Source: a virus. From it: a stretch of DNA of 56,678 bases. Below the pieces are notes generated by a model. That model did no database searches. It worked only from the letters and a program-made list of their open reading frames with translations, and was not told the origin of the DNA. A program made the position numbers and the translations under genes. Position 1 is the first letter of the stretch. Every line of letters starts with the position of its first letter. The stretch is taken from IMG/VR virus record IMGVR_UViG_3300049215_000850, positions 1-56,678 of that record, one strand, 5' to 3'. Positions 2,787 through 49,667 of this stretch are shown in pieces.

Positions 2787-5700
2787 TCAGAACAACCGAA
2801 GCTGCGCCTCGTTGCCTTTCCTCGTGACGCGCTGCCTGTAGCTCTCGACAGGTTTCACCGGCTCCGGCATGGTGAGGACTACCGGGGCTGCAGGCGGTTC
2901 TGGCTTGGTCTCTTCGACCGCAGGCTCTTCAAGGGGCTTCTCGACGACGTTCGCCCGGATGCGGGCAGTCACCGGCTTCTCGGCCGCGACGGCTTTTCGC
3001 GTACCGACGCGCAGCGGAGCGGCTTCAACCGTGTTCGCCGCGCGCATGGTCTTGATGCGTTCGGCCAGTTCCGTAACCGGAGTCGCTCCCTCTGGAACGT
3101 TCCCGGAGAGGCCGATTCGCAACTGGTCGCGCAGTTGGCCGAGTTCGTCCAAGTACGCCGCGTGCGCGAATGGCCTGCCGAGGCGCGATTCGAAGTCCTT
3201 CAACTGACCCTGCGCTATGGCAAGGTCTTGGGTGACTCGCTGACGCTCGGTCTCGTAATGAACGACCAACCGCTCGACGGCATTGAGCACCGCGCGCGGG
3301 CCGGCGTTGTCACGCACCGAATCCCGCCGGGTCACGACACCTTCGACATAAACATCGGCCTGCCCGAACTTATGCAGGATGAGGCCGAATTCCAGACCGC
3401 GATAGGTGCCGAGCTTGAAGCGACGGGTCTCGCTCACCTCCTCGGGGATGTTATTCATCCGCTTGCCGAGCGATTCCGTCGATGGCTCGGGGTCGCCACG
3501 ATGCGCCTCGATGGTCACCATGTCAGCGGTCAGACCCTCAATCCGCTTCTCGTGCCGCTTGATGGTGTCGGGGAGTTCCTTCAGGCTGCGACGTGCGAGG
3601 TACTGCTCGTCTGCGTGGTTCTTCTTCAGGATGGCCAGACGTTGAAGCTCCGCGTCGGTCTCGGCAAGGGTCAGGACGGCGGGATTGCCGGATGCGATGG
3701 CCTTCACCTCGGCGTAGGAGAGTTCCTGCCCGCCGATATCTTCGGCTTTGCGGACGGCTGCCTCGCCGGTCATCACCTGGGCGATAAACCGCGCTTTGGT
3801 CTCCAATGCCTGCCACATGAAGGCGTCGAACGACCCTTCGGTGACGTAGCGGTAGATGGAGACTTCCTCGTTTGTATTGCCCTGACGGAGTATCCGGCCT
3901 TCACGCTGCTCGACTTCCGCCGGTTTCCACGGGGCGTCGAGATGGTGGAGTGCGACCAATCGCTTTTGGACGTTGGTTCCCGTGCCCATCTTCGACGTAC
4001 TGCCGAGAAGGACGCGCACCGAACCTGAACGCACTTTCTCGAAAAGCACCTGCTTCTTGGCGTCGGTGTCGGCATCTCCGATGGAGGCGATTTGGTTCCG
4101 GGGAATTCCCTGCGCGACCAGCTTTTCAATCACGTCGTCATAGACGGAGAAGCCCCAAGGCGTCGGATTGATGCCCATGTCGCAGAAAACCATCTGAGTG
4201 CCTCGTGTGGGCTCGGTTTTCCGCCAGATTCGGGTGACGTTGCGTACCAACGCGTTGACCTTCGAGTCAGGGTTATCCTCTGCTCCAGCCGATAGCATCC
4301 GGGCATCGAGGGAGAGCTTGCGGCCATCGGTCGTGATGGCGAGCGCGTTGTCCTCGCGTGGGTCAACCTTCTCGCTGCGGATTCGCTCGTACCGCTTGAC
4401 CAGTTCGCCTTGAATACTCCGCTGCTCGTCGGACATTGGGCAGGCGACGATGGTGGGCTTGTTGCCTTCCAGCTTCGGCCTCGGCAGGTCGAGCATGTCC
4501 GCCGTCTGCACGTCCGCGAAAGCCCTGAACTGCTGAATCAGCTCGGGGAGGTTGACGAACTTGGCGAAGCGGCTGCGGGGCTTCAGGGTCGAGCCGTCCG
4601 GCGAAATCTCCATCGTTTCGACCACCTCGCCGAAGGTCGCGGCCCATGCGTCGAAATGCTCGATTCCGCGGCTTCGCAATCCTTCCGGGTCGAGGAACCG
4701 CTGCATCGTGTACATCTCGACCATCGTGTTGCTGATGGGCGTCCCGGTGGCGAATGTGACTCCGTGTCCGGCGTGGTTCTCTTCGAGGAAACGGGCTTTC
4801 ATGTAGAGGTCGAACGCTCGCTCAGAGCCTCCGGTCTGGATGCCCGCGACGCGCTCCATCTTGGTGGGTGTTTCGAGGTTCTTGAAGAAGTGGGCTTCGT
4901 CGATGAAGACGTGGTCGACGCCCAGCTCGTCGAACACTAGGCCGTCGTCCTTCTTGTCCTCAGCCAGCAGGTCTTTGAGTCGTTCCTCGCGCTTGGCCTT
5001 CTGCTTCTCGATGGTCTTGATGATGTTGCGGTTGCCACGCGACTGGTTGGAGCGAGCGGAATCGGCCAGCAACTCCTCGTACTCGGCGATCTGCGCGCGA
5101 AGAAACCTCTCCTGATAGTCGCGCGACATGCCGATGCGCTCGAAGCTCGAATGGGTGACGATGATGCCGTCCCAGTCACCGCTGGCGATCTTGGCCGTCA
5201 GCAACTTGCGGCGGTCCTTCGTGAAATCCTCTTTGCCTGCGATAAGGAGCTTGGCATTCGGGTAGAGGTGCATCGTATCGCGGCCGAACTGCTCCAGCAT
5301 GTGGTTCGGTACGACGTACATGGGCTTCTTGCGCAGCCCGGCTTGCTTCATCTTCATGCCCGTGGCGGCCATTACCGCCGTTTTCCCGGCACCTACGACA
5401 TGGGCGAGCAGGGTGTTTCCGCTGCTCATGCCCCGCCAGACGGCGTCCTTCTGGTGCTGCCGAAGCTCGAATATCTTGCTCATGCCGGGAAAGTCGAGGT
5501 GCGAGCCGTCGAACAGGCGGGGACGCAGGTTGTTGTAGGTGTCGTTGTACATGCGAACCAGCTTCTCGGTGCGGTCAGGGTCGCTGAACACCCACGTTTT
5601 GAATCGCTCCTTGATGGCTTTCTGCTTCTCGCGCGCGGCCAGCGTTTCCACCTGATTCAGAATCCGCTCCTCGCCGTTCACGCCTTGGATGGTGTCGTAG

Positions 5701-7808
5701 ATGGCCGGGGTCTTCAGGTTCAGGGCGAGGTCGAGCAATGCCGTGCCGTTGATACGGCCTGTGCCGTAATCGGTGGTCGCGGCGACTGAATTCATTGCCC
5801 GGTAGTCAGGCTCGACGCTCCATACGGCATCTTTCTTGAGGTGGCCAATCTGGATGGCCTCGGGCGGAACCGCGAACAGCTCGGCGGCGAAGGCCTGAAT
5901 GTCTGAAATGGGAATCCAAGGCGCGCCGAGGTTCGCGTCGATATCTCCGGGCAGCACGTCCTCGGGCTGAACCTGCCGCAGGGCTTCGGCATTCCTCGCG
6001 AACTCAGGCCCGGACGATTCGGCGGTGGCCAGCTTCGCCCGGACGTTGCCCGACAGGTAAGCGTCGGCGGTCTGCCACTCCTTTGACTCTGGGTCGCGGT
6101 AAATCAGGTCGCCCAGCTCCGAGATGACGATCTCCTGGGGCTTGCCATAGAGCTTGGAGATGTACGGCATGTCGATGCCGCCGCGGTGGTCGAGGGAAAC
6201 GAGCAGCCCTTCCTCGGCGGAAGTGACGTGCGTGATGGGCGGCTTTGGGCCGACCACATCCTTCTGCATGATGGCCGACTTCTTCGCGTTGCCCGTGACC
6301 TCGTCGTATTCCTCCAGCGACATGACGAGCATGGCGTCGGGGTCCTCGCGGAATTTCACGAGGTTCGGCATGCGGCGGATTTGCGTGCCGTCCTTGGTCT
6401 CGCTGGTGGTCGTCTTGTTGATAGGCCCGTAGGCATGCAGGAACTGGTCATAGGCTCGGTTGAGCTTCTGGCGTGCTTCGAGGCGGTGAGATTCGGGCCA
6501 GTCTTCATTCTGGGACTGGAGGACGCGCCGGGCGACGTCACGCAGGCCAATCAGGGCAGCCATACGCTTCCCGGTCATGGTGCCGTTGGATTTCAGCTCG
6601 ATGCCGCCGTAGACGACGGGCACGGCGTTGCCGTTCTCGACCTGCCGGATAACGTGGTCGTCCCCAACAAAGAAACTGCCTTCGGTGATGTGCCGCTCGG
6701 GTGGTGGGGGCGTGAAAACTGGGGGAGGGTTTGGCCTTTCGGCTTCGGACTGGATGACTTGGCCTTCAGGGAGACGCTGAACGGCCTCCCGGAGCTGCTG
6801 GGCAATGTCGCCGTTCGACAGGACGCTGAAGCCCTCTCCGCCGTAGAGCGTGTCCTTCCGGCTCCAGTCCCCAAGCACCATTTCGGGATGGTTCAGGAAG
6901 TAGCGGTTGACCGGAACTTCGGCACCGTCGATACAAAGTGCGGCGGTTTGTATCCATTCGGGGTCGCAATGTTTACAAACCTCTCCCGGTGCCCGTTTCC
7001 GCAGTAAGACGATGTCCGTGACCACCGCCGTTCCCTCGCGTTTGAACGCATCGGAAGGCAGGCGGATGGCTCCGATGAAGTCGGCCTTGCTAGCGAGTTG
7101 CTCGCGTATGGCCGCATTCTGCTTATCGAGGGTGTAGTGGCTGGTGACGACGGCCAGGACGCCGCCGGGCTTCAGGGCGTCAATCGACTTGGCGATGAAG
7201 AAGTCATGCAGGGAGAGCTTCTCGCCCTGATAGTCGAGCTTCAGGTCGGCGAACGGCACGTTGCCGATTACCGCGTCGAGCTGGGGCAGCTTGGTGTCGC
7301 GGAAGTTCTCGATGCGGATGTCGGCCTTGGGATGGAGCGCGCGAGCGATTCGACCCGAGAGCGAGTCGAGTTCAACGCCGATGAACCTCTGGCCTGACGG
7401 TGCGTGGGCCATGAAATTGCCGATGCCGCACCCGGGCTCAAGAACCGTGGCGTTCGCGGGCACGCCGAGACGCGAAAGGGCCGCGTGCATGGCCGTCATA
7501 ACGGCGGGGGACGTGTAGAACGCGGTGAACGTCGTGCGCTTGGCCGAATCGTATTCTTCGGGGGTCAGGAGCGTTTTCAGATCCTCGCCGATGCCCTGCC
7601 AGCCGTCCTTGTAGCGGCCTGTGACCGGGTCGGGGAATATCGACCGGGCAACCGCGCCGAAACCACCGAAGCGGGCAAGGGCTTGCCTTTCGTCGTCGAC
7701 AGCGAGTCGCTTCTCATGCTCGATGGCTTTGAGGGTTCGGATAGCGGCGATGATGTCGCGGGCTTTGGTTTTCTCCCCAGCCGATGCGAGGAATGGCGGT
7801 AAGTCCAT
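2787..7808 (-). CDS. Giant N6-DNA methylase / SNF2-type helicase fusion protein
   Basis: The protein of about 1673 residues carries an N-terminal methyltransferase domain with the AdoMet motif VLEPGCGIGNF (near 122-132) and a catalytic IGNVPF in place of the usual NPPF. A superfamily-2 helicase domain follows: P-loop GAGKT, DEAH box (FIDEAHFFKNL) and motif VI QREGRILRQG. A Lys/Glu-rich coiled stretch and a Pro-rich tail end it. Such proteins occur on plasmids, integrative conjugative elements and phages; P1 DarB, an injected antirestriction protein, has a comparable architecture. I chose the ATG at 7808 because AAGGAG sits just upstream and the domain begins there. An in-frame ATG at 8162 would add 118 Pro/Ser-rich residues but lacks a ribosome site and reads through a terminator. 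Restriction evasion or DNA processing during transfer is inferred. Confidence 0.88.
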   Translation of the reverse strand: MDLPPFLASAGEKTKARDIIAAIRTLKAIEHEKRLAVDDERQALARFGGFGAVARSIFPDPVTGRYKDGWQGIGEDLKTLLTPEEYDSAKRTTFTAFYTSPAVMTAMHAALSRLGVPANATVLEPGCGIGNFMAHAPSGQRFIGVELDSLSGRIARALHPKADIRIENFRDTKLPQLDAVIGNVPFADLKLDYQGEKLSLHDFFIAKSIDALKPGGVLAVVTSHYTLDKQNAAIREQLASKADFIGAIRLPSDAFKREGTAVVTDIVLLRKRAPGEVCKHCDPEWIQTAALCIDGAEVPVNRYFLNHPEMVLGDWSRKDTLYGGEGFSVLSNGDIAQQLREAVQRLPEGQVIQSEAERPNPPPVFTPPPPERHITEGSFFVGDDHVIRQVENGNAVPVVYGGIELKSNGTMTGKRMAALIGLRDVARRVLQSQNEDWPESHRLEARQKLNRAYDQFLHAYGPINKTTTSETKDGTQIRRMPNLVKFREDPDAMLVMSLEEYDEVTGNAKKSAIMQKDVVGPKPPITHVTSAEEGLLVSLDHRGGIDMPYISKLYGKPQEIVISELGDLIYRDPESKEWQTADAYLSGNVRAKLATAESSGPEFARNAEALRQVQPEDVLPGDIDANLGAPWIPISDIQAFAAELFAVPPEAIQIGHLKKDAVWSVEPDYRAMNSVAATTDYGTGRINGTALLDLALNLKTPAIYDTIQGVNGEERILNQVETLAAREKQKAIKERFKTWVFSDPDRTEKLVRMYNDTYNNLRPRLFDGSHLDFPGMSKIFELRQHQKDAVWRGMSSGNTLLAHVVGAGKTAVMAATGMKMKQAGLRKKPMYVVPNHMLEQFGRDTMHLYPNAKLLIAGKEDFTKDRRKLLTAKIASGDWDGIIVTHSSFERIGMSRDYQERFLRAQIAEYEELLADSARSNQSRGNRNIIKTIEKQKAKREERLKDLLAEDKKDDGLVFDELGVDHVFIDEAHFFKNLETPTKMERVAGIQTGGSERAFDLYMKARFLEENHAGHGVTFATGTPISNTMVEMYTMQRFLDPEGLRSRGIEHFDAWAATFGEVVETMEISPDGSTLKPRSRFAKFVNLPELIQQFRAFADVQTADMLDLPRPKLEGNKPTIVACPMSDEQRSIQGELVKRYERIRSEKVDPREDNALAITTDGRKLSLDARMLSAGAEDNPDSKVNALVRNVTRIWRKTEPTRGTQMVFCDMGINPTPWGFSVYDDVIEKLVAQGIPRNQIASIGDADTDAKKQVLFEKVRSGSVRVLLGSTSKMGTGTNVQKRLVALHHLDAPWKPAEVEQREGRILRQGNTNEEVSIYRYVTEGSFDAFMWQALETKARFIAQVMTGEAAVRKAEDIGGQELSYAEVKAIASGNPAVLTLAETDAELQRLAILKKNHADEQYLARRSLKELPDTIKRHEKRIEGLTADMVTIEAHRGDPEPSTESLGKRMNNIPEEVSETRRFKLGTYRGLEFGLILHKFGQADVYVEGVVTRRDSVRDNAGPRAVLNAVERLVVHYETERQRVTQDLAIAQGQLKDFESRLGRPFAHAAYLDELGQLRDQLRIGLSGNVPEGATPVTELAERIKTMRAANTVEAAPLRVGTRKAVAAEKPVTARIRANVVEKPLEEPAVEETKPEPPAAPVVLTMPEPVKPVESYRQRVTRKGNEAQLRLF

Positions 7809-7832
7809 GGAGTCTCCTTCTCTTGACGTTGG

Positions 7833-7852
7833 AGGCCCCGACTGCGGGGCCT
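7833..7852 (-). promoter_or_regulatory. Leader hairpin before the helicase-methylase gene
   Basis: A perfect 8-bp hairpin (AGGCCCCG / CGGGGCCT, four-base loop) lies about 25 nt before the ATG at 7808 and just ahead of the AAGGAG ribosome site. It has no T-run, so it is more likely a leader structure than a terminator. Apart from it, the terminator and the promoter listed next, the 7809-8235 stretch shows only a Pro/Ser-rich in-frame extension of the giant gene that I consider untranslated. Confidence 0.4.
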
Positions 7853-7984
7853 GACGGCACGAAAAGGAATCAGCATGGGACGGGTGCGGAGCGGACGGGC
7901 AAGCGGAATCACGGAAAGGGGCCTCTTGGGAATAGGCCGTTATTCCGCTTGAGCGAGCCGGACCGCTGATTACCGTGCTGTCAG

Positions 7985-8004
7985 AAAAAGCCCCGGGCGG
8001 GGCT
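7985..8004 (-). terminator. Intrinsic terminator, probable end of the late operon
   Basis: On the minus strand AGCCCCG-CC-CGGGGCT forms a near-continuous GC stem followed by T residues. It lies downstream of the lysis genes and upstream of the giant helicase-methylase, so it would stop late-operon readthrough. It is also about 180 nt downstream of the promoter at 8193-8221, and so could bound a short RNA. Confidence 0.7.
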
Positions 8005-8166
8005 GGAGAAGGCGGGGAATGGATGGTGTGCGGGGGCGTTGGGCTGAAGATGGGGAGGAGGGACTGTCCGCGTGCTGGGCGGACACGTTCGACGAACGAC
8101 GAAGGGCGTCCATCTCTGACGAATCGCTTGGCGAAGGAAGGTTTGTCGGTCGGCTCCGTCATGAGT

Positions 8167-10014: not shown

Positions 10015-11034
10015 CTATGCTTTAGCTATACCATATAATTTGATATTTCCAGAAGTGATATTTCCGGAGTCCATCAGGAAGCGGACGGCGTTGATTGAGT
10101 TTGCCGATACCCTGACTCCACCACCCTCCAGTGAGCGGAAATTGGAGCCTGCCACACCGGCGGTATCGAAGTAGGTCAGGTCAAACTTAATGCCCTTGTA
10201 GACGGCGGTATTGTTCACACCTCTGAACTTGACGTCGCCGTTTATTGCCACGCCCGTGTTGTTGTTGACCGTCGGGGCGATGATGATTTTTGTGTCGCTG
10301 TTGCTCCCGGCAGTGGAGTTTGATGCAGTCGTGCTGCCCGACGGCGCGATCTTGTTGTAACCGTAGAAATAATTGCCTGCACTGGCATCCCAGTTAGCTC
10401 CGTTGTCAGTGCTGGTTCGCATATAGAGGTTGACGCCATTCGTAGCCGGAATGAGGTTGTCGATGACGAACAGGTAATCGTCGTAGGTCGACGACATCAG
10501 GCTGGTGAAGTCGAGTGTCGCGCTTGCGGCTGCGGTCTGTGTACCGAGGTAAACCAGTGCTCCAGGGGTTGAGGTTGTCTTGCCCAAGCATTGAAGCTGA
10601 AGCTGCGTGCCATCATCGAGGACTTCGTACATCCCGCCAGAGATAATCTTGTTCGTGGAATCGAGGGCAGACAGAACACCGTTGATCATCATCTTCACGT
10701 TGCGAGTGCCGAGGCCGTCTGAATTGATCGTAACAGCGGTGCTGCTGTCGGCCGTGGCCTTAAAGACGCTTTTCTGCCCAGCGGCATACGCAGTTCTTGT
10801 CGGTGAATGGGTCAGCGTTATCGCGTTTCCAGTCCCGCCAACTGTTGCATACTCGAATGTTTGGTTCTGCACGTCTTTTGCAGAGGGTATCTTGATGCCG
10901 CCGGCGGTAGTTCCATTCCCGACGACGATGCGGTTATTCGTAGTGTCGTAGCCAAGCTCGCCGGATGCAGGCGTTGCCGCGGTAAGGTTGGTCGCCGTGT
11001 CACGACGTATCTGTGTTTGTGTCGCTGTCGTCAT
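10015..11034 (-). CDS. Tail fibre / receptor-binding protein
   Basis: The 339-residue, Thr/Ser/Asn-rich, beta-type protein begins with the particle-binding module common in phage fibres: an RRDT start and an ASGELGYDTTNNRIVVGNGT segment around residues 23-43, as in Mtd-like N-terminal domains. The C-terminal third is Gly/Asn-rich and beta-predicted and probably contacts the host surface. It overlaps the tail-tip gene by 4 nt and directly precedes lysis, the normal fibre position. No chaperone gene is seen. Confidence 0.75.
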   Translation of the reverse strand: MTTATQTQIRRDTATNLTAATPASGELGYDTTNNRIVVGNGTTAGGIKIPSAKDVQNQTFEYATVGGTGNAITLTHSPTRTAYAAGQKSVFKATADSSTAVTINSDGLGTRNVKMMINGVLSALDSTNKIISGGMYEVLDDGTQLQLQCLGKTTSTPGALVYLGTQTAAASATLDFTSLMSSTYDDYLFVIDNLIPATNGVNLYMRTSTDNGANWDASAGNYFYGYNKIAPSGSTTASNSTAGSNSDTKIIIAPTVNNNTGVAINGDVKFRGVNNTAVYKGIKFDLTYFDTAGVAGSNFRSLEGGGVRVSANSINAVRFLMDSGNITSGNIKLYGIAKA

Positions 11035-17861: not shown

Positions 17862-18287
17862 TTAAGATTGAATATATGCTCGATATCTTGCGACTCCGTG
17901 GTAGTAGCGGTCGTTCTGCCCTTCGACGGTCGTGTCTTGGAACGTCTCCTCGAACTCGCTCTGGATGTCGACCAGCGTGAACCCGGTGACGGTGATGTTT
18001 GCCGACTGGCGGTGAAGCGCGTCGTATATCGCGCTCAGGATCGACTTGACCGACTTCCTTCCGGCCTTCTCGAAGTCCCAGCAATGGATCGTGACCGTGA
18101 TTTCCCAGCCGTTCGTCGACTTGGTTGACCAGTCGATGGCCGTGTCGTCCCCGATGACCACGTAGGGTGCGGAGGCGTTCTGCGGCACGAAGTCATAGAC
18201 CCGCGTGCTGACCAGTGAGGTGAGCGCGGAGTAACCCGTGAGCCGCGTGTAAATCGCGGCCTGAAGTGCGTTGCTCGACGTGCTCAT
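17862..18287 (-). CDS. Tail terminator / completion protein (DUF3168-like)
   Basis: The 141-residue protein fits the DUF3168 family: AIYTRLTGYSALTSLV start, VYDFVPQNASAPYVVIGDD, then an alpha/beta core with HCWD. These proteins cap the tail tube and join it to the head. It overlaps the gp10-like gene by 4 nt. Confidence 0.82.
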   Translation of the reverse strand: MSTSSNALQAAIYTRLTGYSALTSLVSTRVYDFVPQNASAPYVVIGDDTAIDWSTKSTNGWEITVTIHCWDFEKAGRKSVKSILSAIYDALHRQSANITVTGFTLVDIQSEFEETFQDTTVEGQNDRYYHGVARYRAYIQS

Positions 18288-18736
18288 CGTCCGGCCTTTT
18301 CAAGACCGCGACGGAGTGCGTCCTGAAGCCTATCCCTGATCCACGCCTTGCTCTTTTCGAGGGCGGGGAAGAAGAAGGGACGGGGAGCCATCTTCGTTGT
18401 GCCGAACTCCAGCATGCGGGCGTACTTGACCGACGCGCTTCCAGAGATGGCGGCGGCCTCGCCCGGTCCAGCCATTTCGGCGTGGATGCTGTTGACGAGT
18501 CTACCCGTGTCCGAGGCGGGAGCCTCTCCCGGTGCGGATGCGCGGTGAGTGACGGAGCGACGCTTGTAGGTGCGGCCTGACTTCTGGCCGCTGAGAATCG
18601 ACTTCCTGGCTTCCGTGGCGACCTTCTGGGCGGAGGCGAATACCGCCTTGTTCACTTCCGTTGCGACCGCCTGCCTGATTTGCTCGCTGGCCTTCGAGAT
18701 GCTGTCGAGCCCTTCAATCTTGACCGAGAAGTCCAC
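18284..18736 (-). CDS. HK97 gp10-like tail component
   Basis: The 150-residue protein carries the HK97 gp10 signature: SGRTYKRRS and APGEAPASDTGRLVNSI followed by YARMLEFGT and RPFFFPAL. It belongs to the neck-tail joining group. It sits directly before the tail terminator, the usual order, and touches the gene upstream at one base. Confidence 0.85.
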   Translation of the reverse strand: MDFSVKIEGLDSISKASEQIRQAVATEVNKAVFASAQKVATEARKSILSGQKSGRTYKRRSVTHRASAPGEAPASDTGRLVNSIHAEMAGPGEAAAISGSASVKYARMLEFGTTKMAPRPFFFPALEKSKAWIRDRLQDALRRGLEKAGR

Positions 18737-19008
18737 TACCGCTCTCTAACCTGTACCTTGATGGTGCGCTGATCGATTCTTCCTCCAGCTGTTGTTATCT
18801 GGTTGACGAGGGAATAATCCTGACCATGCGTCCCGCCTGTGAGCCAGATCGTCGTGGTCGTCGTCGTGTTGGACTCGTCTACGCTCGTAAGTCCTGTTGG
18901 AACGGTCCACGAGGAGGCGGTGATGGTGTCCGTGCCAAGCCACGCTGACCAATCCCACCCGGTGTCGATCTTTGCCGACGGGTCCTTGTTGAATGCTTCG
19001 ATTGTCAT
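18736..19008 (-). CDS. Fibre-tail adaptor-like protein (90 aa)
   Basis: This 90-residue protein shows the pattern of phage gp35-like fibre-tail adaptors: KIDTGWDWSAWLGTDTI at the start, SLVNQITTAGGRIDQRTIKV near the end. It overlaps the end of the large repeat protein by 4 nt. That pairing supports the idea that the repeat protein and this one act together in an appendage. Confidence 0.65.
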   Translation of the reverse strand: MTIEAFNKDPSAKIDTGWDWSAWLGTDTITASSWTVPTGLTSVDESNTTTTTTIWLTGGTHGQDYSLVNQITTAGGRIDQRTIKVQVRER

Positions 19009-21764
19009 GCCTGAAATACCCTTGTTTCATCTGATACCAAGAAGAGTCGCGTTTCGGATTCGACGGAGAAGTCTCGCGCCTCGGCCGCGACGGTAAACGT
19101 CGTGACGTCAGCCAGCACGTCGAAGAACCGGGTCTCCGCCCTGACCCTGAACGTATTCAGCCCACTCGGCCGTAGCGATATCGCGTACGGAAGCAGTGAC
19201 GTACACTGGCTCAAAAGCTCGGTAAGCGGCCTTTTCCAGATCGGCGAACCAAGGATCGGAAGCCACCTGTCAGGTAGCAACACGTCCAGCGGACTGAATC
19301 CCTGCCCGACATAGAGGGCGGATTTCGCAAGCCGCACCTGGTCCGGGTAGGTCGGTGACCACTTGTCAGGGGTGATCGCTTCCCCGGAGAGAATCCCGAC
19401 TGGTGGATTCACTTTGCCCTCTGGAACGAGAGGCTTCGCCTTCCAAACCTGAGCCGGGTAAACTGGCGTCCATTTGTCCGGCCGTACCTCTTCGGTCGTG
19501 GCGACCCCCTGCGGGTAGATAACGATCCCATTGCAGAGGATGCTCCGCGCCTTCCAGATCTGGTCTGGGTAGCGAGGCCCCCATTTGTCGCTCGTGACGA
19601 CCTCAGCGACCACCGGAGGCTGAATGGGGTAGGTGTTCGCAGCCGTATTGACCGCGACCGGCTTCCGGAGCTGGTCGGGGTAGCTTCCTGCCCATTTGCT
19701 CAGAAGGGTCGTTTCACCCCAGCTCGTGAGCTGCGGTACGACGTACTTCCCTTCCGACACCAACGGCTTGCGGCCTTCGATCCTGTCCGGATACGTCGGA
19801 TTCCACTTACTGACGAGTGGCGTTTCCCCCCATCCAGTCAGGATAGGTAAAAGCGTCATTCCCTCCGGGACGTTCGGCTTCGCCTTGACTGCCCGGTCGG
19901 GGTACGAGGGTGCCCACTTATCAACCCGGATGCTCTCCCCGGTGGTAATGCCCGGAGTGGCGACGCTTATCCCTGTCGGAACAAGCGGTTTTGCCTTTTC
20001 TACCCGGTCGGGATAGGTCGGCTTCCATTTGTCGGCCTGTATGGTCTCGGCGGACGTGATGCCCGTAGTCGTGACGGTCAACCCCGTCGGAACCAATGGC
20101 CTCCGCACGTCGATCCGGTCGGGGAAGTACGGTTCCCACTTGTCGAGTCGGATCGTTTCGCCGGCCGTGATCCCGGTCGTCGTGACCGAGAGCCCGGTAG
20201 GCACGAGCGGCCGAGCGGTGAAAACCCTGTCTGGGAAGACCGGCCACCACTTGTCGGAGGTGATCGTTTCGCCGGCGGTAATTCCCGTGGGCTGGACGAC
20301 CTTGCCTTCGGGTACAAGGGGCTTGGCCTTCTCAATCCGGTCTGGGAACGAAGGATACCACTTGTCAGGCCGAATCTGTTCTCCGGTCGTGATCCCGACC
20401 GGCCTGACGTATAAACCCTCCGGCACGAGCGGCTTGACCTTCAGGTGCTGCGCGGGGTAGGACGGCGTCCATTTGTCCGGCCGAATTTGTTCTTTGGCGA
20501 GCGCGGCAGACGTGATGCCAGTCGGCTCGATGTTCCAGCCTTCCGGAACATCGGGTTTCGCCTTATCAGCGCGATCTGGATAGTCAGGCAGCCACTTGTC
20601 GGGCTTGATCTGCTCAAGTGCTAGGGCCGCAGTAGTTATTCCAACGGTCTGCACCGCGTGCCCCGTGGGGACAAGAGGCTTGGCCGAAAATATTTTGTCA
20701 GGGAACGAAGGGATCCACTGATCTGCCGTTATGTATGTCCCAAACTCGGCCACCTCATAGCCAGCTGTTCTGGTGGTGGTGCCAGCCGCGCCCTTGGTCA
20801 TTGTCACGGTGGTTGAATCTGTCAGCGTCAACTTGTCATAGTAGGCGTCCGCCGCTGAAGTGCTCACAGGATCGCCAGTATGACTCAGCCAGCTGACAAA
20901 AGCATTAGCCGTTGTCACAGAGGAGATCGTGGCGGTGTTGCTCGCAACACTCGCGCATGTGATGCTCCCACGCTGCACACTCGTCAGCACGCCTGTGACA
21001 AACTCAATCACAGAGTAGCACATATTTCGCGTGGCAGTGCCAGTGGCGAAGCGAGTGAGCGTGACCGTGGTGGCATTCGTCAAGGTCACCCAGAAAGAGG
21101 CGGCCTGCGTGCTTGAGGCCGCCGCCACATATGTACCACCGAAGGCTATTATCGAGTTAGCTGTGTTAACGCTTGTTATCGTCTGTGTGTCAGTCAGGGA
21201 TCCAGATTGCGTGGACTGAACATTGAATCTCTGGATTCTATTTATAACCGCCGCCGCGAAGGTGACCACAACATAGCTGACTGTGACCGTCCCAGTGGTC
21301 CCCACATGCGCGGTGACCGTGGTGGCATTCGTCAACTCAACTCCGGATGCAGAGGCGAGCTGCGAAGTTGTAGATGTAGAGGTCTGCCCCAGATAGAACA
21401 CTTCCGACAGAGCGGTGTCCACGGAGGAGATTGTGGCGGTGTTGCTTGTGCCAGCCGTGATGGTGATCGTCCCGGCCTGCACTCCCGTCACAAGACCAGC
21501 GGCAGGGTCGACGCAGACACAGTTAACCGTCACCGCGTTACTCGCGTCAGAGGTATTTCGCGTGGCAGTGACGGTGGTCGAGTTGGTCAGAACAACTCTT
21601 GCCATCTGCGTGGCGGGATTGCCCGTCGCATTCGGCTGAGTCTGACCCTGATATATCAAGAAGGCGTTGGCACCAACACCTGTTATGGTCGCTGTGTTGC
21701 TGGTCGAGCCAGCCGCGATGGTGATGCTTACCTGCTGCGGGGCCTGTCTTAAATAATTTGCCAT
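19005..21764 (-). CDS. Large repeat protein, probable virion appendage (919 aa)
   Basis: Three repeat systems make up almost the whole protein. Residues about 8-345 are four copies of an 80-90 residue Thr/Ala-rich beta module with a TNATTVTxxR core. Residues 346-838 are 14 units anchored on a Trp (W350, 391, 432, 469, 506, 543, 580, 617, 654, 691, 728, 765, 802, 834). Spacing is exactly 37 from W432 to W802 and 41 in the first two units. The consensus is xxDKWxPxYPDRxxKAKPLVP followed by EGxxVxPxGITxxE. Residues 870-919 hold short ETRxFxV repeats known from phage proteins. There is no signal peptide or membrane helix. It lies between the head connectors and neck proteins, next to the adaptor-like gene, so a head or neck fibre is likely. 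The function is inferred. Confidence 0.75.
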   Translation of the reverse strand: MANYLRQAPQQVSITIAAGSTSNTATITGVGANAFLIYQGQTQPNATGNPATQMARVVLTNSTTVTATRNTSDASNAVTVNCVCVDPAAGLVTGVQAGTITITAGTSNTATISSVDTALSEVFYLGQTSTSTTSQLASASGVELTNATTVTAHVGTTGTVTVSYVVVTFAAAVINRIQRFNVQSTQSGSLTDTQTITSVNTANSIIAFGGTYVAAASSTQAASFWVTLTNATTVTLTRFATGTATRNMCYSVIEFVTGVLTSVQRGSITCASVASNTATISSVTTANAFVSWLSHTGDPVSTSAADAYYDKLTLTDSTTVTMTKGAAGTTTRTAGYEVAEFGTYITADQWIPSFPDKIFSAKPLVPTGHAVQTVGITTAALALEQIKPDKWLPDYPDRADKAKPDVPEGWNIEPTGITSAALAKEQIRPDKWTPSYPAQHLKVKPLVPEGLYVRPVGITTGEQIRPDKWYPSFPDRIEKAKPLVPEGKVVQPTGITAGETITSDKWWPVFPDRVFTARPLVPTGLSVTTTGITAGETIRLDKWEPYFPDRIDVRRPLVPTGLTVTTTGITSAETIQADKWKPTYPDRVEKAKPLVPTGISVATPGITTGESIRVDKWAPSYPDRAVKAKPNVPEGMTLLPILTGWGETPLVSKWNPTYPDRIEGRKPLVSEGKYVVPQLTSWGETTLLSKWAGSYPDQLRKPVAVNTAANTYPIQPPVVAEVVTSDKWGPRYPDQIWKARSILCNGIVIYPQGVATTEEVRPDKWTPVYPAQVWKAKPLVPEGKVNPPVGILSGEAITPDKWSPTYPDQVRLAKSALYVGQGFSPLDVLLPDRWLPILGSPIWKRPLTELLSQCTSLLPYAISLRPSGLNTFRVRAETRFFDVLADVTTFTVAAEARDFSVESETRLFLVSDETRVFQA
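19251..20729 (-). repeat. Fourteen tandem 37-41 codon repeats inside the 919-aa gene
   Basis: At DNA level the units are 111 bp apart (123 bp for the first two intervals) and diverged in third positions, so the protein is conserved more than the DNA. The invariant landmark is a DKW codon triplet followed by a YPD or FPD and a P-L-V-P segment. Units near W654, W691 and W728 are the most degenerate. A second repeat set of about 85 codons occupies 20730-21743. Confidence 0.85.
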
Positions 21765-21944
21765 TTATCCCCCTGGGATGGCGATCATCTCCATTGTCGC
21801 GAGGTCAACCATCATGTTCGTCGTGTCAACCCATTCCGGGAAAACCAGTTGGCTCCTTCCGTCAGGCATGGCGTCGGTGGCTGCCGGCGAGATCGTGCCG
21901 TTGATTACGCCGGTTGAGAGGTCGAATTGAACCCCGAAGGTCAT
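21765..21944 (-). CDS. Small hypothetical virion-cluster protein (59 aa)
   Basis: A 59-residue protein whose ATG overlaps the stop of the 84-residue gene as ATGA, and whose stop touches the ATG of the 919-residue gene. The coupling on both sides supports translation. The short protein is acidic with Met/Pro near both ends and no obvious motif. It resembles small proteins next to phage appendage genes, but I do not recognise a family. Confidence 0.6.
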   Translation of the reverse strand: MTFGVQFDLSTGVINGTISPAATDAMPDGRSQLVFPEWVDTTNMMVDLATMEMIAIPGG

Positions 21945-22195
21945 ACCGGCTGCATTTTGGGGACGAGCTTTCCGTTCTCGACCATCATTATGACGTTGAA
22001 GTTCTGATCGAAGATGTTGATGACCTGCGGGTATGAAAGGACGGAGCAGCCAGCGGGTTCTTCGTTGTGTTCAGAGTCCTTCGGGCCTTCTTGGTAGCTG
22101 ACGATTTCACCTTCTTGCGGGGCTGCGCTCAGCGGGATGCCCTTGAACTTCGCGTAGAGTTTGCGGTCGGATACATAGTGCAGATTGAACATCAC
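21941..22195 (-). CDS. Hypothetical protein (84 aa)
   Basis: An 84-residue soluble protein with no recognised domain. Its start overlaps the stop of the zinc-ribbon gene and its stop overlaps the 59-residue gene, so it belongs to the same coupled run. Glu/Pro-rich centre, hydrophobic ends. Confidence 0.6.
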   Translation of the reverse strand: MMFNLHYVSDRKLYAKFKGIPLSAAPQEGEIVSYQEGPKDSEHNEEPAGCSVLSYPQVINIFDQNFNVIMMVENGKLVPKMQPV

Positions 22196-22509
22196 TTTAG
22201 CTCCTTCAGTATGCCTTTTTCGTAGTCGTCGAGTTTCTTCTCAAAGTTGAAATGCTTGTGGCAGTTCGGGTTGGTGCATGTCCTCGCGAACCCGCATTTC
22301 TTGCAGATTCCGTACTTTTCGCCGTTCACGGGAGGAGTCATGATGACGTGTGTGCCGCAGTGGCAACATTGGTAGGTATCGTATTCCTGCGTCACTCCAT
22401 CCGTGGTTACGGTGACGTAGCCTGCCGGCTTGGCCAGCGTATGTTTGCGGTCGTTCCCTATGAAGAATGTTCTGGGATTCTGGTTCTTGCTTGACAGATC
22501 ATCGCTCAT
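22192..22509 (-). CDS. Zinc-ribbon protein (105 aa)
   Basis: The C-terminal half holds several Cys/His pairs: QCCHCG, CKKCG, then C-x-NPNCHKH, consistent with one or two zinc-binding ribbons. The N-terminal part is polar. I start at the ATG at 22509 because upstream codons read antisense to the neighbouring gene and look non-coding. It may be an assembly or regulatory factor. Zinc ribbons are common in phage structural clusters without known roles. Confidence 0.65.
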   Translation of the reverse strand: MSDDLSSKNQNPRTFFIGNDRKHTLAKPAGYVTVTTDGVTQEYDTYQCCHCGTHVIMTPPVNGEKYGICKKCGFARTCTNPNCHKHFNFEKKLDDYEKGILKELK

Positions 22510-22550: not shown

Positions 22551-23021
22551 TTATTCTTCGATCAAGAAAGTCCAGGCGAGGTTGTACGTCGCAGTCGCCA
22601 CGAGTGGCATTAGAGCGAGACCGTTGTTCGCGGTGGCCGGGATCTTTAATTCGGAACCCGGTGCGGCAACCCAGCGATAGGTGGCGCGCTGGTTGAGCGC
22701 GGCCTGTAGGAGGAATGCTGAAGCGGTGAGCGTCGGGCCTACCGAGCAGATACCTTGGTTGGAGGTGGTAACAGCAGCGGGGTCGCCCGGGTCGAGGGCC
22801 TGCGGGGTAATTGCTGCGCCACCGGCACCTGCCCACGTCCCAACGGTCGTTGAACGCTGCCACGAGTATTTGGCGGCCTGGTCACCTGGGGTCGCGTCAG
22901 ATCCGATAGTCATGTCATAGAGCATCGTGCGGACGGCCGCGGTGCCGACGATGTTCGCGATAGGAAGGGTCGAGGACGATGCGCTCGCGCAGTTCCCTGT
23001 GATGCCGTATTTTCTTGCCAT
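22551..23021 (-). CDS. Hypothetical virion protein (156 aa)
   Basis: This 156-residue, Ala/Thr/Gly-rich beta-type protein has no signal or membrane segment. It lies between the head closure protein and the zinc-ribbon gene. Composition and place suggest a small structural or decoration protein of head or neck. No family is assigned. Confidence 0.6.
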   Translation of the reverse strand: MARKYGITGNCASASSSTLPIANIVGTAAVRTMLYDMTIGSDATPGDQAAKYSWQRSTTVGTWAGAGGAAITPQALDPGDPAAVTTSNQGICSVGPTLTASAFLLQAALNQRATYRWVAAPGSELKIPATANNGLALMPLVATATYNLAWTFLIEE

Positions 23022-23039: not shown

Positions 23040-23348
23040 TTAAGTGATTCCTCGTTCGATTGCTTTGATAATTAAGAATCTGCTGTTCTCGTCTTCGTTG
23101 ATGACTTCCTTTACCCAGAAGTACCGTGTGCCGTACTTCAGGCGGCTCGTGGTCGTCACGTCGCTGCGGTAGCGCATGACGAGCTTGTGGGTGACGGGCG
23201 TCTGCATCTGGTCGGCCTGAAACCGCTCCCATGCCTTCACAGGCTCGATGGAGGCGTAGACCGTGTCCCCGTCCGTCCATGTGTCCGTCCAACCGCCCTG
23301 GCCGTCGCTTGACTGCCCGAGGCTCTGGATCGTGATGCGGAACTTCAT
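23040..23348 (-). CDS. Head-tail adaptor / head closure protein
   Basis: From the ATG at 23348 the protein has 102 residues with the pattern of phage head closure proteins (SPP1 gp16 / HK97 adaptor group): MKFRITIQS, a DTWTDGDTVYASIEPVK strand region and LKYGTRYFWVKEV. A longer frame begins at 23447, but those residues overlap the connector gene and look random. It follows the gp6-like connector, the usual order. Confidence 0.75.
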   Translation of the reverse strand: MKFRITIQSLGQSSDGQGGWTDTWTDGDTVYASIEPVKAWERFQADQMQTPVTHKLVMRYRSDVTTTSRLKYGTRYFWVKEVINEDENSRFLIIKAIERGIT

Positions 23349-23370
23349 GGCCGCGGTTCGCGTGCAGCAC

Positions 23371-24009
23371 TTAGGCACAGCGGCTGCCGATGATTCGGTA
23401 CTGGTTGTAGAGCTGCTTCGCCGAGGCCGGAACCGCCGTAGGGTCATCGCACTGGCCGCGCTGCTCGTAGAGCGTGGCGACGTGAATCATCAGCCCCGTC
23501 TTGATCGGCTGGGGGACGGATGAAGCAGCCCCGTACCCGGCGACGTAGGTGACCTCGCAGGCACTCTGCGGGCGTAGGTTGCTCGGCCAGATAGCCCCGT
23601 AGTTCAGCACGAGGCGGTCGCCCGAGTTGTCCACTCGGTAGCTCGACGAGGCGAACGTGCTTGACGTGTTGTCGAGGTCGTAGGTTACGACGGACGTAAT
23701 CGACGAAACCGGCCCCTTTGGAAGGGGAATGATCTGCGGTAGGCCGCCGTAGAGTGCGGTGACCGGAAGGTCGTACGTCCCGTCACCGAGCATCCGGTCG
23801 AGGTCGCTTCCGCCTAAGTCGAGCGTGAGCTTCCACGTCTGGCTGATGAGCGAGCGGCGGAGATACTCCTGAGCGGAGTGGGTGGCCGCCCCGATGAGCT
23901 GCTCGATCAGGGCATCGTCGTCAGAGCCGTCGAGTCTCGCCCACGCCTTCGCCTCGGAGGCGGATATCGCCTCGCTGGTGGGGCCGGTGACGAGAACGAG
24001 CGACCGCAT
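23371..24009 (-). CDS. Head-tail connector protein (gp6-like)
   Basis: The 212-residue protein has the gp6-like connector signature: an early SASEAKAWARLDGSDDDALI segment followed by THSAQEYLRRSLISQTWKL. These form a ring between portal and tail. It overlaps the 94-residue gene by one base and precedes the head closure gene. Confidence 0.82.
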   Translation of the reverse strand: MRSLVLVTGPTSEAISASEAKAWARLDGSDDDALIEQLIGAATHSAQEYLRRSLISQTWKLTLDLGGSDLDRMLGDGTYDLPVTALYGGLPQIIPLPKGPVSSITSVVTYDLDNTSSTFASSSYRVDNSGDRLVLNYGAIWPSNLRPQSACEVTYVAGYGAASSVPQPIKTGLMIHVATLYEQRGQCDDPTAVPASAKQLYNQYRIIGSRCA

Positions 24010-24302: not shown

Positions 24303-24707
24303 TTACTTTGCTGGTATGGAAAAAACGACGACTGTGCGAGCGGCGGGTTCAGTCGAGCCGCTGACGACTTTCACGAACCGCATGCCCCTTAACAGGGTTG
24401 GGTCAATGCCCACATATTTGGAGGACGCGATGGTTTTGCTCACGTCATTCCCGGCACCGTCCGTCAGAGTCTGGAAAGTTCCACCTGAAGCCGTGGAGAC
24501 AGAGAACTTAAGCGTTGTGCCTGTGAAGGCGGTGGGGATCTGCAATCCAACGATGACAGTGCCGCCGAGGTCGACTTCGCCTGAGGCTGTGTCTCCAGAG
24601 GCGATCACGGCAGAGGTCTGGGCGCGGGAGTCGCTGAAAACGGTGGCAGTAGGTGCGGCGGTGGCAATGGCTGGTAAAAAAATCAATAGGAGGAGAAGTA
24701 TTCTCAT
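24303..24707 (-). CDS. Secreted beta-type protein of the inserted cassette (134 aa)
   Basis: It has a clear Sec signal peptide: Arg near the start, a run of Leu/Ile, and ATA-AP as a likely cleavage site near residue 18. The mature part is Thr/Ser/Gly-rich and beta-predicted. Exported proteins are not expected in the head gene cluster. It overlaps the stop of the O-antigen ligase-like gene and is thus co-expressed with it. It may be an envelope-modifying or surface protein of the lysogen. Confidence 0.65.
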   Translation of the reverse strand: MRILLLLLIFLPAIATAAPTATVFSDSRAQTSAVIASGDTASGEVDLGGTVIVGLQIPTAFTGTTLKFSVSTASGGTFQTLTDGAGNDVSKTIASSKYVGIDPTLLRGMRFVKVVSGSTEPAARTVVVFSIPAK

Positions 24708-25777
24708 TTGCGTACCTTTCTGGTGTTCATGATGCAGCCGAGGGCGAGCCCCATAGGAAGGCTCACAGCGGCAATGTAAAACTGAAACTCAACCATCGAC
24801 ATGGCGGTGATGGCGAGTATGGCAACGGATGCCGCGGTGTTCGCGCGGCTGAAGATGGCGGACAGTAAAAGCCCGCATAAGATCATGGCAGCCGGGATGC
24901 CTATCTCGATGGCAATCTGGAGCATGTCGTTGTGTGCGTGCCAGCCGGTCGTGTATTGTTCAATTCTGACCTTCTCGTAGTAGAAGCCAAAAGCCCCGAG
25001 GCCGAGACCTAGAAGGGGCCGGATAAAGGCCAAGGGGTAGCTCGCCTCCCAGATCGGAAGCCGGTCCCTGAATGAATCCACAAGGATGAGGAATAGTTCG
25101 GGGCGTTCGATATAGATGACCACTGAGAAGATCGTGCCGATGGCCATGCAGAATAAAAAGAAGTCCAATCCCTTTCGGATCGTCAGGATCGTGACTGCTC
25201 CCAACCCAGCGACTGCGAATCCCGCTTTGCTGCCAGTGGCATACAAAGCCGTGGCAAACAGAAGGCATAAGATCCACCAACGCAGGTCCTTGAATAGGGC
25301 CATGTATAGACATGGAAGGAGCGCAAGGTTGATGACCGCTGCGCCGTTGTTTGGATCGAGCAATGGCCACGAATGGCGGTTTTCGTAATTGATGAACGTC
25401 GTCTGGGTGTTCAGATAGAGCTGGACAACCAGGCCGAGGGCGTAGACCGTCATGACCGTCAGAAAGCAAATGCAGTATGGCCTGATGTGCTCTTTCCTCA
25501 GAGACACTGCAAGAGACGGCATGGCCGCGAGGACCCACATCATCGCCGCTCCATTTCTCACCGGAGCGAGGATGAAGGTTGAGGTTCCTATGATGAGCAG
25601 CCAAGCGACGGCGAAGTACCAGATGACCCCCCGATCACGTGGGTAGTCACCCTTATAAAGAAGGACCGCGCATCCTGCGATGTGGAAAAACACCCATGCC
25701 CCCGCCAGCGGACTGCTCCAGAATTGGACGAACAGGCTGATGGCGAAGGCGATGGTATGCAGGAGCGCGGGAAGCAT
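24704..25777 (-). CDS. O-antigen ligase/polymerase-like membrane protein
   Basis: This 357-residue polytopic inner-membrane protein has about ten hydrophobic helices. The large periplasmic loop region contains GLGLGAFGFYYEKVR and then the WHAHNDMLQIAIEIGIP motif characteristic of WaaL/Wzy-type enzymes, which join or polymerise O-antigen. It is unexpected between capsid and connector genes. Temperate phages often alter host O-antigen to block superinfection, which fits. It overlaps the upstream 45-residue gene by one base (TAATG) and the next gene by 4 nt. Ligase versus polymerase cannot be told from sequence. Confidence 0.8.
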   Translation of the reverse strand: MLPALLHTIAFAISLFVQFWSSPLAGAWVFFHIAGCAVLLYKGDYPRDRGVIWYFAVAWLLIIGTSTFILAPVRNGAAMMWVLAAMPSLAVSLRKEHIRPYCICFLTVMTVYALGLVVQLYLNTQTTFINYENRHSWPLLDPNNGAAVINLALLPCLYMALFKDLRWWILCLLFATALYATGSKAGFAVAGLGAVTILTIRKGLDFFLFCMAIGTIFSVVIYIERPELFLILVDSFRDRLPIWEASYPLAFIRPLLGLGLGAFGFYYEKVRIEQYTTGWHAHNDMLQIAIEIGIPAAMILCGLLLSAIFSRANTAASVAILAITAMSMVEFQFYIAAVSLPMGLALGCIMNTRKVRK

Positions 25778-42810: not shown

Positions 42811-42867
42811 GTCTTGACTCGCGCGTCCCGCTGCGTACGATTCCTCAACCTACTCACGGAGGCAGTA

Positions 42868-45615
42868 GTGCTAAGAACCCACTGGCTGACCAGTTCCTCT
42901 GCAGCCAAAGCGTATTTCCGCCAATCCGATTACTACGCTTCCACGCCGGGCGAATGGCTTGGCCGTGGTGCCGAGGTTCTCGGGCTCAAAGGTGCCGCGC
43001 GCGCCGAAGACTTCGACCTGCTCTGTGACAACATCGACCCGCGCACTGGGGAGCTGCTCAGACCGCTCGCTCGCGAGGAAGGCCGAGTCGGCATGGACTT
43101 GACGTTCAACAGCACGAAGAGCGTTGGCATTGCCCGCGAGCTGGCCGGGCGTGGGAACGCTGGCGACCCGCACATCGAAGAGGCCCACCGTGATGCCGTC
43201 CGCTACGCCATGAGCTTCGTCGAGGCCGATATTCAGGCACGCGTTCGCGTCGGCGGGAAGAACGAAGACCGCGTGACCGGGAACATGGTCGCGTACCGGG
43301 TGACTCACCGGGATACTCGCATTTCAGCCGAAGACCAGAAGCCGGATATGTCGCTGCATGACCATGTGTTCGTTCTGAACACGACCTATGATGCTGTCGA
43401 GGGCAAGTGGAAAGCCGCCCAGATGGGGCAGGTGAAGCACGACGCCCCGTATTACGAGGCCATCTACCACAACCGTCTGGCCGCGAACCTCCGTGAGCTT
43501 GGCTACGGCATCCGTCGCAAGGACAAGGCCTTTGAAATCACAGGGGTCTCCGAGGACCTCGTGAAGAAGTTCAGCCGTCGCCGCGAATACATCAAGGCGG
43601 TGGCCGAGAAGCTCGGTATCACGAGCGCGGCAGGGATGGACAAGCTCGGGGCGACCACCCGTCTGGGCAAGGCGAAGGAACTGGCCGACGACTTGAACGG
43701 CTACTACGTCAGCCGACTCACTGAGCAGGAACGTCAGCAGCTTGGCAACCTGATTGGCAAGCCGTCCTACCTGTGCAGCGAGCAACAGGCCGTCGGCTTT
43801 GCCATCGGGCACATGTTCGAGCGGTCGAGCGTCGTGGACGAACGGAGGCTCTATGAGACGGCCTTGCGACAGGGTATAGGTTCGGTGTCGCCGGAGGACG
43901 TGAAGGCCGAGGCGAAGCGGCAAGGTGTTCTTCTGAAGGGTGGCGAGGCAACCACGCGGGACGTGCTGGCAGAGGAAGGCCGTATCATCGCCTTTGCCCG
44001 CGAAGGAAGAGGGACGTGCAGGCCGATGGGAGTTGTACGAGAAAATCGTACAACTGAGCGCGCACGGTCAGAGCCGCAGAATTCCTTAGTTTCTGGTGCG
44101 AAAGAGGGTGAAAACCGCGCACTTGGCGCGCGCCGTGGTCAAGCCGTTGAATTAAAGGACCTTTCCCAAGAACAAGCCGCCATCGCGCGCCACGTCTGGG
44201 AATCGCCCGACCGGGTCATCATGATTCGCGGGGCTGCCGGCACGGGCAAGACGCACACCATGAAGGCGACCATCGCCGGGATTGACCGCCCCGTGGTCGT
44301 GCTGGCCCCCTCCGCCGACGCAAGCCGGGGCGTGCTCCGCAAGGAAGGCTTCGAGGAAGCCGATACCGTGGCCCGGTTCCTCATGGACGAGAAGTTTCAG
44401 GAGAAGGCCAAGGGCGGCGTCATCTGGGTCGATGAGGCCGGGCTTCTGGGCATCCGTCAGGTTCGGTCGGTCTTCGACGTTGCCGAGCGTCTGGGTGCTC
44501 GTGTCGTCCTCCAGGGCGACAAGCGTCAGCATGCCAGTGTCGAGCGGGGTGCGACGCTCCGGGTACTCGAGCAGTTCGCTGGGCTGCCCGTGGCCGAGCT
44601 GAAGGACATCCGACGCCAGAAAGGCGAGTACAAGGCCGCGGTCGAGTCGCTATCCAAGGGTGACTTTCTGGCTGGCTATGATAGCCTCGACGCGCTCGGC
44701 TGGGTGAAGCAGACTCCGGTGTTCGACCACAACAAGCCGCTGGTCGATGACTTCATGGCGGCGTTGGATGCGAACAAGTCGGTGCTGGTCGTGGCTCCGA
44801 CCCACATCGAGGGCGCGGAAATCACGGCAGATATCCGTGCGAAGCTCAAGGAACGGGGGATAGTTGGCAAGGATGAAAAGGCTATTGAGACGTTGGTTCC
44901 GCTCAATTGGACGGAAGCCGAAAGGGGCGACCTCGAACGCTACGACGGAACCGAGGTCATGCAGTTCCACCGCAACTCCGGCTCCTTCCGTGCCGGAGAC
45001 CGAATCCGCGTTATCGACTGGAAGCGTGGAGACTCGTTTAGCAGCCCTTCGCACTTCTCTGTCTACTCGAAAGGAAGCCTCCCGCTCGCGGTGGGAGACG
45101 TTATCCGAATCACCGCCAACGGAAAGACGCTGGACGACAAGCATAAGCTCAACAACGGAGCGACGTATCAGGTCAAGGGATTCGACGAGAAGGGAAACGT
45201 CGTCCTCGGCAACGGATGGGTCGTCGCCCGAGACTTCGGGCACATGACGCACGGGTACGTCACGACCTCCCACGCCTCGCAGGGCAAGACTGTTGACCGC
45301 GTGCTGATAGCGATGGGTCACGAGTCACGTCCGGCCATCAATGCCGAACAGTTCTACGTCAGCGTGTCTCGTGGTCGAGACGGTGCGACGGTCTACAGCG
45401 ACCTCTCCTCCGCGACGCTTCGTGAAGCCATCCAGCGTTCGGACAAACGGAAGTCGGCAACTGAGCTTGTCGGGAAACAAAAGCCGAAGCCCCGCGCGAA
45501 GATTCTGCAGTTCATGACGAAAGCCCGGAAGGTCGCAAGAGCGTTGCGGGAACGTGCGGCAAGTGCTATCGAGGGAGTGACCAAGCGAAAGGAGTCGCAG
45601 CGTGAGCGAGCTTGA
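42868..45615 (+). CDS. MobF-family relaxase-helicase (TrwC/TraI-like)
   Basis: The 915-residue protein has an N-terminal relaxase domain: Tyr cluster (Y16, Y22, Y23), MDLTFNSTKSV (about 76-86) and a His group (H147, H164, H166 in SLHDHVFVLN) for metal binding. It has a C-terminal RecD-like helicase with Walker A AAGTGKT (near 457) and Walker B VDEAG (near 518). It should nick at a transfer origin, bind the 5' end and unwind DNA for export. The GTG at 42868 is chosen because GGAGG lies 5 nt upstream and the family start follows directly; an in-frame TTG 54 nt earlier is less likely. A relaxase is most unusual among phage genes. Confidence 0.9.
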   Translation: MLRTHWLTSSSAAKAYFRQSDYYASTPGEWLGRGAEVLGLKGAARAEDFDLLCDNIDPRTGELLRPLAREEGRVGMDLTFNSTKSVGIARELAGRGNAGDPHIEEAHRDAVRYAMSFVEADIQARVRVGGKNEDRVTGNMVAYRVTHRDTRISAEDQKPDMSLHDHVFVLNTTYDAVEGKWKAAQMGQVKHDAPYYEAIYHNRLAANLRELGYGIRRKDKAFEITGVSEDLVKKFSRRREYIKAVAEKLGITSAAGMDKLGATTRLGKAKELADDLNGYYVSRLTEQERQQLGNLIGKPSYLCSEQQAVGFAIGHMFERSSVVDERRLYETALRQGIGSVSPEDVKAEAKRQGVLLKGGEATTRDVLAEEGRIIAFAREGRGTCRPMGVVRENRTTERARSEPQNSLVSGAKEGENRALGARRGQAVELKDLSQEQAAIARHVWESPDRVIMIRGAAGTGKTHTMKATIAGIDRPVVVLAPSADASRGVLRKEGFEEADTVARFLMDEKFQEKAKGGVIWVDEAGLLGIRQVRSVFDVAERLGARVVLQGDKRQHASVERGATLRVLEQFAGLPVAELKDIRRQKGEYKAAVESLSKGDFLAGYDSLDALGWVKQTPVFDHNKPLVDDFMAALDANKSVLVVAPTHIEGAEITADIRAKLKERGIVGKDEKAIETLVPLNWTEAERGDLERYDGTEVMQFHRNSGSFRAGDRIRVIDWKRGDSFSSPSHFSVYSKGSLPLAVGDVIRITANGKTLDDKHKLNNGATYQVKGFDEKGNVVLGNGWVVARDFGHMTHGYVTTSHASQGKTVDRVLIAMGHESRPAINAEQFYVSVSRGRDGATVYSDLSSATLREAIQRSDKRKSATELVGKQKPKPRAKILQFMTKARKVARALRERAASAIEGVTKRKESQRERA

Positions 45616-48150: not shown

Positions 48151-48261
48151 GTTTGCGCCGATTCGCACCGGGTTTTCAAGAAGATTCTGGGGTCCGTGGG
48201 GGCGGCTCGCTAGATTCCCCCGCCATTCGACTGCCCGGTGATTCTCAGAAAGGATTTCTCA

Positions 48262-49556: not shown

Positions 49557-49667
49557 CCCTGCGCCTTGCCAATCACCCAGCGTCTAGAACCGCTGAACGA
49601 CTAACTCAGCCTCTTGCTCTCAGGTTGTGTATGGCACCGACCGTGCCACATCGATAGGAGTCTGTCA

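Follow-up and report, generated by a model that had tools for sequence, protein, structure and literature searches.

A Trp-repeat protein encoded among phage neck genes is probably a modular adhesin tether

The window analyzed here comprises positions 1 to 56,678 of IMG/VR virus record IMGVR_UViG_3300049215_000850. On its minus strand, the genes run from the terminase large subunit, portal, morphogenesis protein, and major capsid protein through Ad1, Hc1, d156, a zinc-ribbon protein, and two small open reading frames (ORFs) to a Trp-repeat protein, a 90-residue adaptor, Neck1, the tail terminator, and the tape measure. The features discussed below are as follows.

23371..24009, minus: head-tail adaptor Ad1 (phrog_442, E 6e-28)
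23040..23447, minus: head closure protein Hc1 (PHROG 25, E 2e-18; PF05521, E 3e-21)
22551..23021, minus: d156, a 156-residue protein conserved upstream of Trp-repeat genes (co-occurrence with Trp-repeat loci)
22192..22509, minus: zinc-ribbon protein, the cassette partner of d156 (co-occurrence with Trp-repeat loci)
21941..22195, minus: 84-residue ORF between the zinc-ribbon and putative tether genes (no PHROG or Pfam family)
21765..21944, minus: 59-residue ORF directly upstream of the putative tether gene
19005..21764, minus: 919-residue Trp-repeat protein, the putative tether or fiber (P0001; ORF and translation)
20730..21764, minus: four N-terminal beta modules, residues 1-345 (AF2 pLDDT mostly 80-95)
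19179..20738, minus: 14 Trp-centered units, residues about 343-862, consensus (E)xIxxDKWxPxYPDRxxKAKPLVPxG
19008..19154, minus: C-terminal ExR array with an exact 9-residue period, residues about 871-919, the putative adaptor-docking anchor
18736..19008, minus: 90-residue fiber-tail adaptor of the GP4 gp77 type (PF23148, E 1e-25; 8jou_D, E 5e-6)
18284..18736, minus: tail completion protein/Neck1 (phrog_5, E 1e-19)
17862..18287, minus: tail terminator (phrog_176, E 2e-28; PF11367)

Other genes of the window were also noted. A TrwC-type relaxase-helicase (42814-45615; PF08751, E 1e-57), two type IV coupling proteins (1302-2555 and 49614-51407; PF02534, E 1e-54 and 8e-70), and a ParB-like protein (48238-49053) are all encoded on the plus strand; together with the complete head-neck-tail module, they make the element look like a mobilizable phage-plasmid. 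Relaxase or oriT is reported to be absent from all but two P1-like phage-plasmids (PMC10879196). The head-neck gene block also encodes a membrane protein resembling O-antigen ligases and polymerases (24704-25777, minus; Wzy_C, E 3e-12), a candidate modifier of host surface sugar. A DarB-like antirestriction protein of 1791 residues (2787-8162, minus) is encoded downstream of the tail genes, a fiber protein with an Mtd_N (major tropism determinant) N terminus (10015-11034, minus) follows a gpJ-like protein, and a tRNA-Gly (tcc) gene occupies 51694-51777 (minus).

The initial annotation, made from the letters alone, had placed a 919-residue protein at 19005-21764, and this ORF was borne out, on the minus strand. 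From N to C terminus, P0001 consists of four beta modules, a chain of 14 Trp-centered units, and a short tail of ExR repeats. Sequence and profile searches of Pfam, PHROG, and PDB identified no relative, which agrees with the annotation's view that the DKW-YPDR repeat is uncharacterized, and no description of the Trp repeat was found in the open-access literature searched. P0001 had no match among 50,697 cultured-phage records, and nothing credible emerged from cultured phages when P0001, its unit block, its N-terminal modules, or the relatives at loci L005, L018, and L022 were used as queries; low-scoring matches from Aeromonas, Bacteroides, and Mesorhizobium (E 0.4-5), whose contexts did not match, were judged to be chance.

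The N-terminal modules are the only part of P0001 that AF2 modeled with confidence, in keeping with the four beta modules that had been annotated ahead of the Trp array. This module recurs in 37 other viral loci (L060-L096), where it is also found in stand-alone proteins of 85-190 residues with one or two modules as well as in multimodule chains; seven of these proteins were tested, and none belonged to a PHROG family. When the full P0001 model was searched against PDB with foldseek, the best match was the APC-beta domain of TgPLP1, and this match was weak (E 2e-3, target TM 0.34). Against BFVD, two matches fell below 1e-3, with a TM of only about 0.1. Since these matches are weak, any binding role for the N-terminal modules is a guess.

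In the array that follows, Trp residues stand at positions 350, 391, 432, 469, 506, 543, 580, 617, 654, 691, 728, 765, 802, and 834. The intervals are thus 41, 41, ten times 37 (W432 to W802), and finally 32, and the 14 units and their spacing are as the annotation had described. The longest run of equal intervals, 10, was never approached in 2000 shuffles of P0001 (longest runs of 1-4). A longer consensus, IxxDKWxPxYPDRxxKAKPLVPxGxxVxPxGITxGEx, describes the unit, with some degeneration: units 9 and 10 carry SKW, unit 10 lacks most of the consensus, and unit 14 is truncated. Given that pairs of units share 36-66% of their nucleotides, the array did not arise by recent amplification. Its composition is 13% Pro, with balanced charge.

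The annotation had taken this regularity to imply either a solenoid or a chain of modules, of which the solenoid was not supported. Structure prediction, a check proposed at the time, returned no confident fold for four units modeled as an AF2 monomer with 23 aligned rows (pLDDT 55, pTM 0.15); the sole order in this model was one helical turn at each SDKW, and it contained no strand pattern. In the full-length model, residues 345-919 had pLDDT values below 50. Because AlphaFold gives the Trp units no fold, the predictions do not support a monomeric solenoid, and the units matched no family above the cutoff among the curated Pfam repeat and solenoid models.

Unit-profile searches, another check proposed, recovered about 40 IMG/VR loci encoding Trp-unit proteins, with 2-25 units spaced mostly 31-44 residues apart. 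They apparently constitute a broad, undescribed family, in which a DKW-PxYPD subtype (the window, L005, L007, and L015) can be distinguished from a DRW-xPxSEPVR subtype (L018, L022, and others). A profile built from the window alone recovered L005 (E 6e-39), L007, L015, L018 (E 4e-6), and L022 (E 2e-5); none of the reversed-sequence decoys fell below E 0.1. A mixed eight-row alignment of units contained no stretch conserved enough for scanning, and a locus from a Burkholderiales metagenome-assembled genome (L025) was set aside because only about one unit matched. In L015, a single ORF (5998-7428) combines the Trp-repeat protein, in frame, with a tail terminator domain (phrog_4204, E 5e-9), through either a fusion or a lost stop codon. 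The protein of L019 has SPRY-like and beta-helix-like segments inserted between its units. Since spacing and unit number vary among relatives and whole domains are inserted in some, the exact 37-residue interval is a local feature of P0001, and a flexible chain fits these proteins better than a packed solenoid.

The ETR repeats that had been reported after the Trp array proved to be exact 9-mers. Residues 875-919 consist of five of them (RAETRFFDV/LADVTTFTV/AAEARDFSV/ESETRLFLV/SDETRVFQA), and shuffling the tail 20,000 times reached its ExR count once. AF2 gives this segment no fold. The neighboring gene, previously called adaptor-like, does encode a member of the adaptor family of GP4 gp77 (PF23148), and its ATG overlaps the stop codon of the P0001 gene by 4 bp (ATGA).

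The pairing of an ExR tail with this adaptor extends beyond the window. Of 376 gp77 adaptor loci confirmed in IMG/VR, 80 were listed, and 79 of these had a readable upstream gene. Among these listed matches, 39 of the 79 genes preceding the adaptor end in a 9-periodic ExR pair, compared with 25 of 659 other ORFs of the same loci, although the 79 loci include near-duplicates and are not phylogenetically independent, so these counts do not represent independent events. Across the listed loci, ExR pairs lie 9, 18, 27, or 36 residues apart (n = 96, 64, 29, and 17, respectively), with any other distance occurring at most 3 times. Cultured phages also encode a repetitive protein with a basic 9-mer tail before gp77, namely, BcepIL02 (gp56), Microcystis phage Mwe-JY26, Sinorhizobium phage PBC5, Agrobacterium phage Atu_ph08, and Pseudomonas phage Itty13; Trp units are absent from all five counterparts. 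At 12 IMG/VR loci (L101, L103-L106, L108, L111-L112, L114, L117, L121, and L130), a single jelly-roll-looking domain, LamG-like by eye, is joined straight to the ExR array before gp77, without a repeat spacer; the proteins of L101 and L114 matched no Pfam family.

Conversely, a Pfam-significant gp77 was found downstream of Trp-unit proteins only in the window, L018, and L038. The small ORFs after most other Trp-unit proteins checked were not detectably gp77, so the two are not always coupled. In L005, the downstream protein was considered as a gp77 relative, which was not supported (hhalign E 0.14).

Two loci that carry the window's four N-terminal modules provide the strongest argument that payload, spacer, and anchor are separable functions. 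In L091, these modules are combined with a different spacer and QxR 9-mers, and the gene overlaps that of gp77 (Pfam E 3.5e-20), a combination that points to modular assembly. In L088, they are followed by a different Trp-rich spacer, and d156 lies upstream.

Since the P0001 gene lies between Hc1 and Neck1 and its neighbor is an adaptor, a neck-encoded fiber is the best reading, much as the annotation's head or neck fiber had anticipated. Because the gene directly precedes that of a known fiber-anchoring protein among the neck genes, P0001 is most likely a long adhesive fiber, belonging to a type so far undescribed but common among uncultured phages. At the level of sequence, the analysis establishes the three-part architecture, the gene order and overlap, the adaptor family, the recurrence of ExR before gp77, and the interchangeable spacers. 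Beyond this, we think it probable that P0001 is a modular, neck-encoded tether for a virion adhesin, with distal beta modules, a flexible Trp spacer, and an ExR anchor on gp77. The C-terminal 9-mers would dock on the gp77-type adaptor, perhaps by beta-strand addition, and the adaptor would fix the fiber to the neck or upper tail. The chain of Trp units would serve as an extended, presumably flexible spacer of variable length with a short repeated motif, and the four N-terminal modules may form a distal payload, probably one that binds a surface or host. Such a tether would be present in virions. Several points weigh against this reading: P0001 has no sequence match to the GP4 fibril, JC1 gp54 is missing from the mass spectrometry list shown for that phage, the coupling to gp77 is limited as described above, the 79 adaptor loci are not independent, the ExR tail has no AF2 fold, and the foldseek matches of the N-terminal modules are weak.

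The main rival reading takes its cue from the genes upstream. Among the 25 Trp-repeat loci with more than 3 kb of upstream sequence, d156 is present in 21 and the zinc-ribbon gene in 22, compared with 1 and 0, respectively, of 117 control loci; queries derived from the window alone also recover the d156 and zinc-ribbon proteins of relatives. Each DKW unit might therefore dock a virion partner from its own cassette, either d156 or the zinc-ribbon protein, with the chain strapping or cross-linking partner copies on the head or neck instead of projecting freely. Within the unit, only a short stretch around the Trp is invariant, and order is predicted only there, as a docking motif would have it. 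In addition, the proteins encoded just upstream of d156 in L005 (2332-2937) and L007 (4184-4999) each finish with an apparent single Trp unit (..DSWHPEVSKPFLEKREVIPY and ..PDMWHPKIEQPLLTKNEVIPY, respectively), although the unit profile does not detect these tails. However, the binding is purely putative, the cassette association may reflect lineage, and 2-25 units with inserted domains fit a spacer equally well. We therefore regard this alternative as rather unlikely. In its fuller form, the DKW unit would be a previously unrecognized docking motif of phage virions, 2-25 of which bind repeated copies of the cassette partner, with gp77 securing the ExR tail; this version is a speculative one, to which we give slightly less weight still. 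If it were true, it would reveal a multivalent, plug-in fiber platform common to many uncultured phages.

A tether also has to be set against a rigid shaft, in which the Trp array would fold only as an oligomer, with a triple-beta-spiral-like or other fibrous fold, to form a straight neck or tail fiber. The strict period over ten intervals and the conserved Pro, Gly, and Trp positions are in keeping with such a shaft, and AF2 run on a monomer often misses shafts that are obligate trimers. Nevertheless, the spacing varies among relatives, no strand pattern appeared despite the 23 aligned rows, and the Pro content together with the balanced charge points to an extended chain, making an oligomeric shaft improbable. 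Finally, P0001 has no direct homolog in a known virion and could be a cytoplasmic assembly or host takeover protein whose gene landed among the neck genes by chance, but this is highly improbable given that its gene overlaps a virion adaptor gene inside a head-neck operon and that the same architecture recurs at neck or tail loci.

An adhesin tether at this position would matter because flexible neck, head, and tail fibers often decide the first contact with the host, and because such proteins, being repetitive, are usually left "hypothetical." The combination of payload modules, interchangeable spacer, ExR anchor, gp77 adaptor, and conserved three-gene cassette could guide fiber annotation across hundreds of uncultured phages, and the functions of the anchor and Trp unit become testable with short peptides.

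Among known systems, the Ralstonia podophage GP4 (PDB 8JOU) shares the adaptor family PF23148 with the window, and its podophage relatives BcepIL02 and Itty13 encode, ahead of gp77, a repeat-rich protein that ends in a basic 9-mer tail, as in the window. In contrast to GP4, the window phage encodes a siphovirus-type tail, and the Trp units and four beta modules of its fiber protein are absent from the podophage proteins preceding gp77. The chain 8JOU_g of GP4 is described as a fibril linking the adhesin to the tail collar (Zheng et al. 2023, as cited in PMC13243795). Neither P0001 nor a profile of the podophage proteins preceding gp77 (A10) matched the fibril chain in a PDB search, which lends no support to identity between those proteins and the 8JOU fibril. 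Mass spectrometry identified the adaptor homolog gp55 in purified virions of phage JC1 (PMC9144972); gp54, the counterpart of BcepIL02 gp56, is not among the JC1 mass spectrometry proteins shown. PHROG families 14109, 25597, and 36418, which span 40-62 positions and are of unknown function, weakly match a single Trp unit of L005; P0001 itself matches none of them. A likeness of plan is offered by gp34-gp36 of Alishewanella phage LSH1, which in its authors' working model comprise a payload and a fibril together with an attachment protein of Ig fold (PMC13243795). Compared by that description, P0001 would follow the same scheme of payload, fibril, and anchor, but whereas payload and fibril are separate proteins in LSH1, the whole chain is a single polypeptide in the window.
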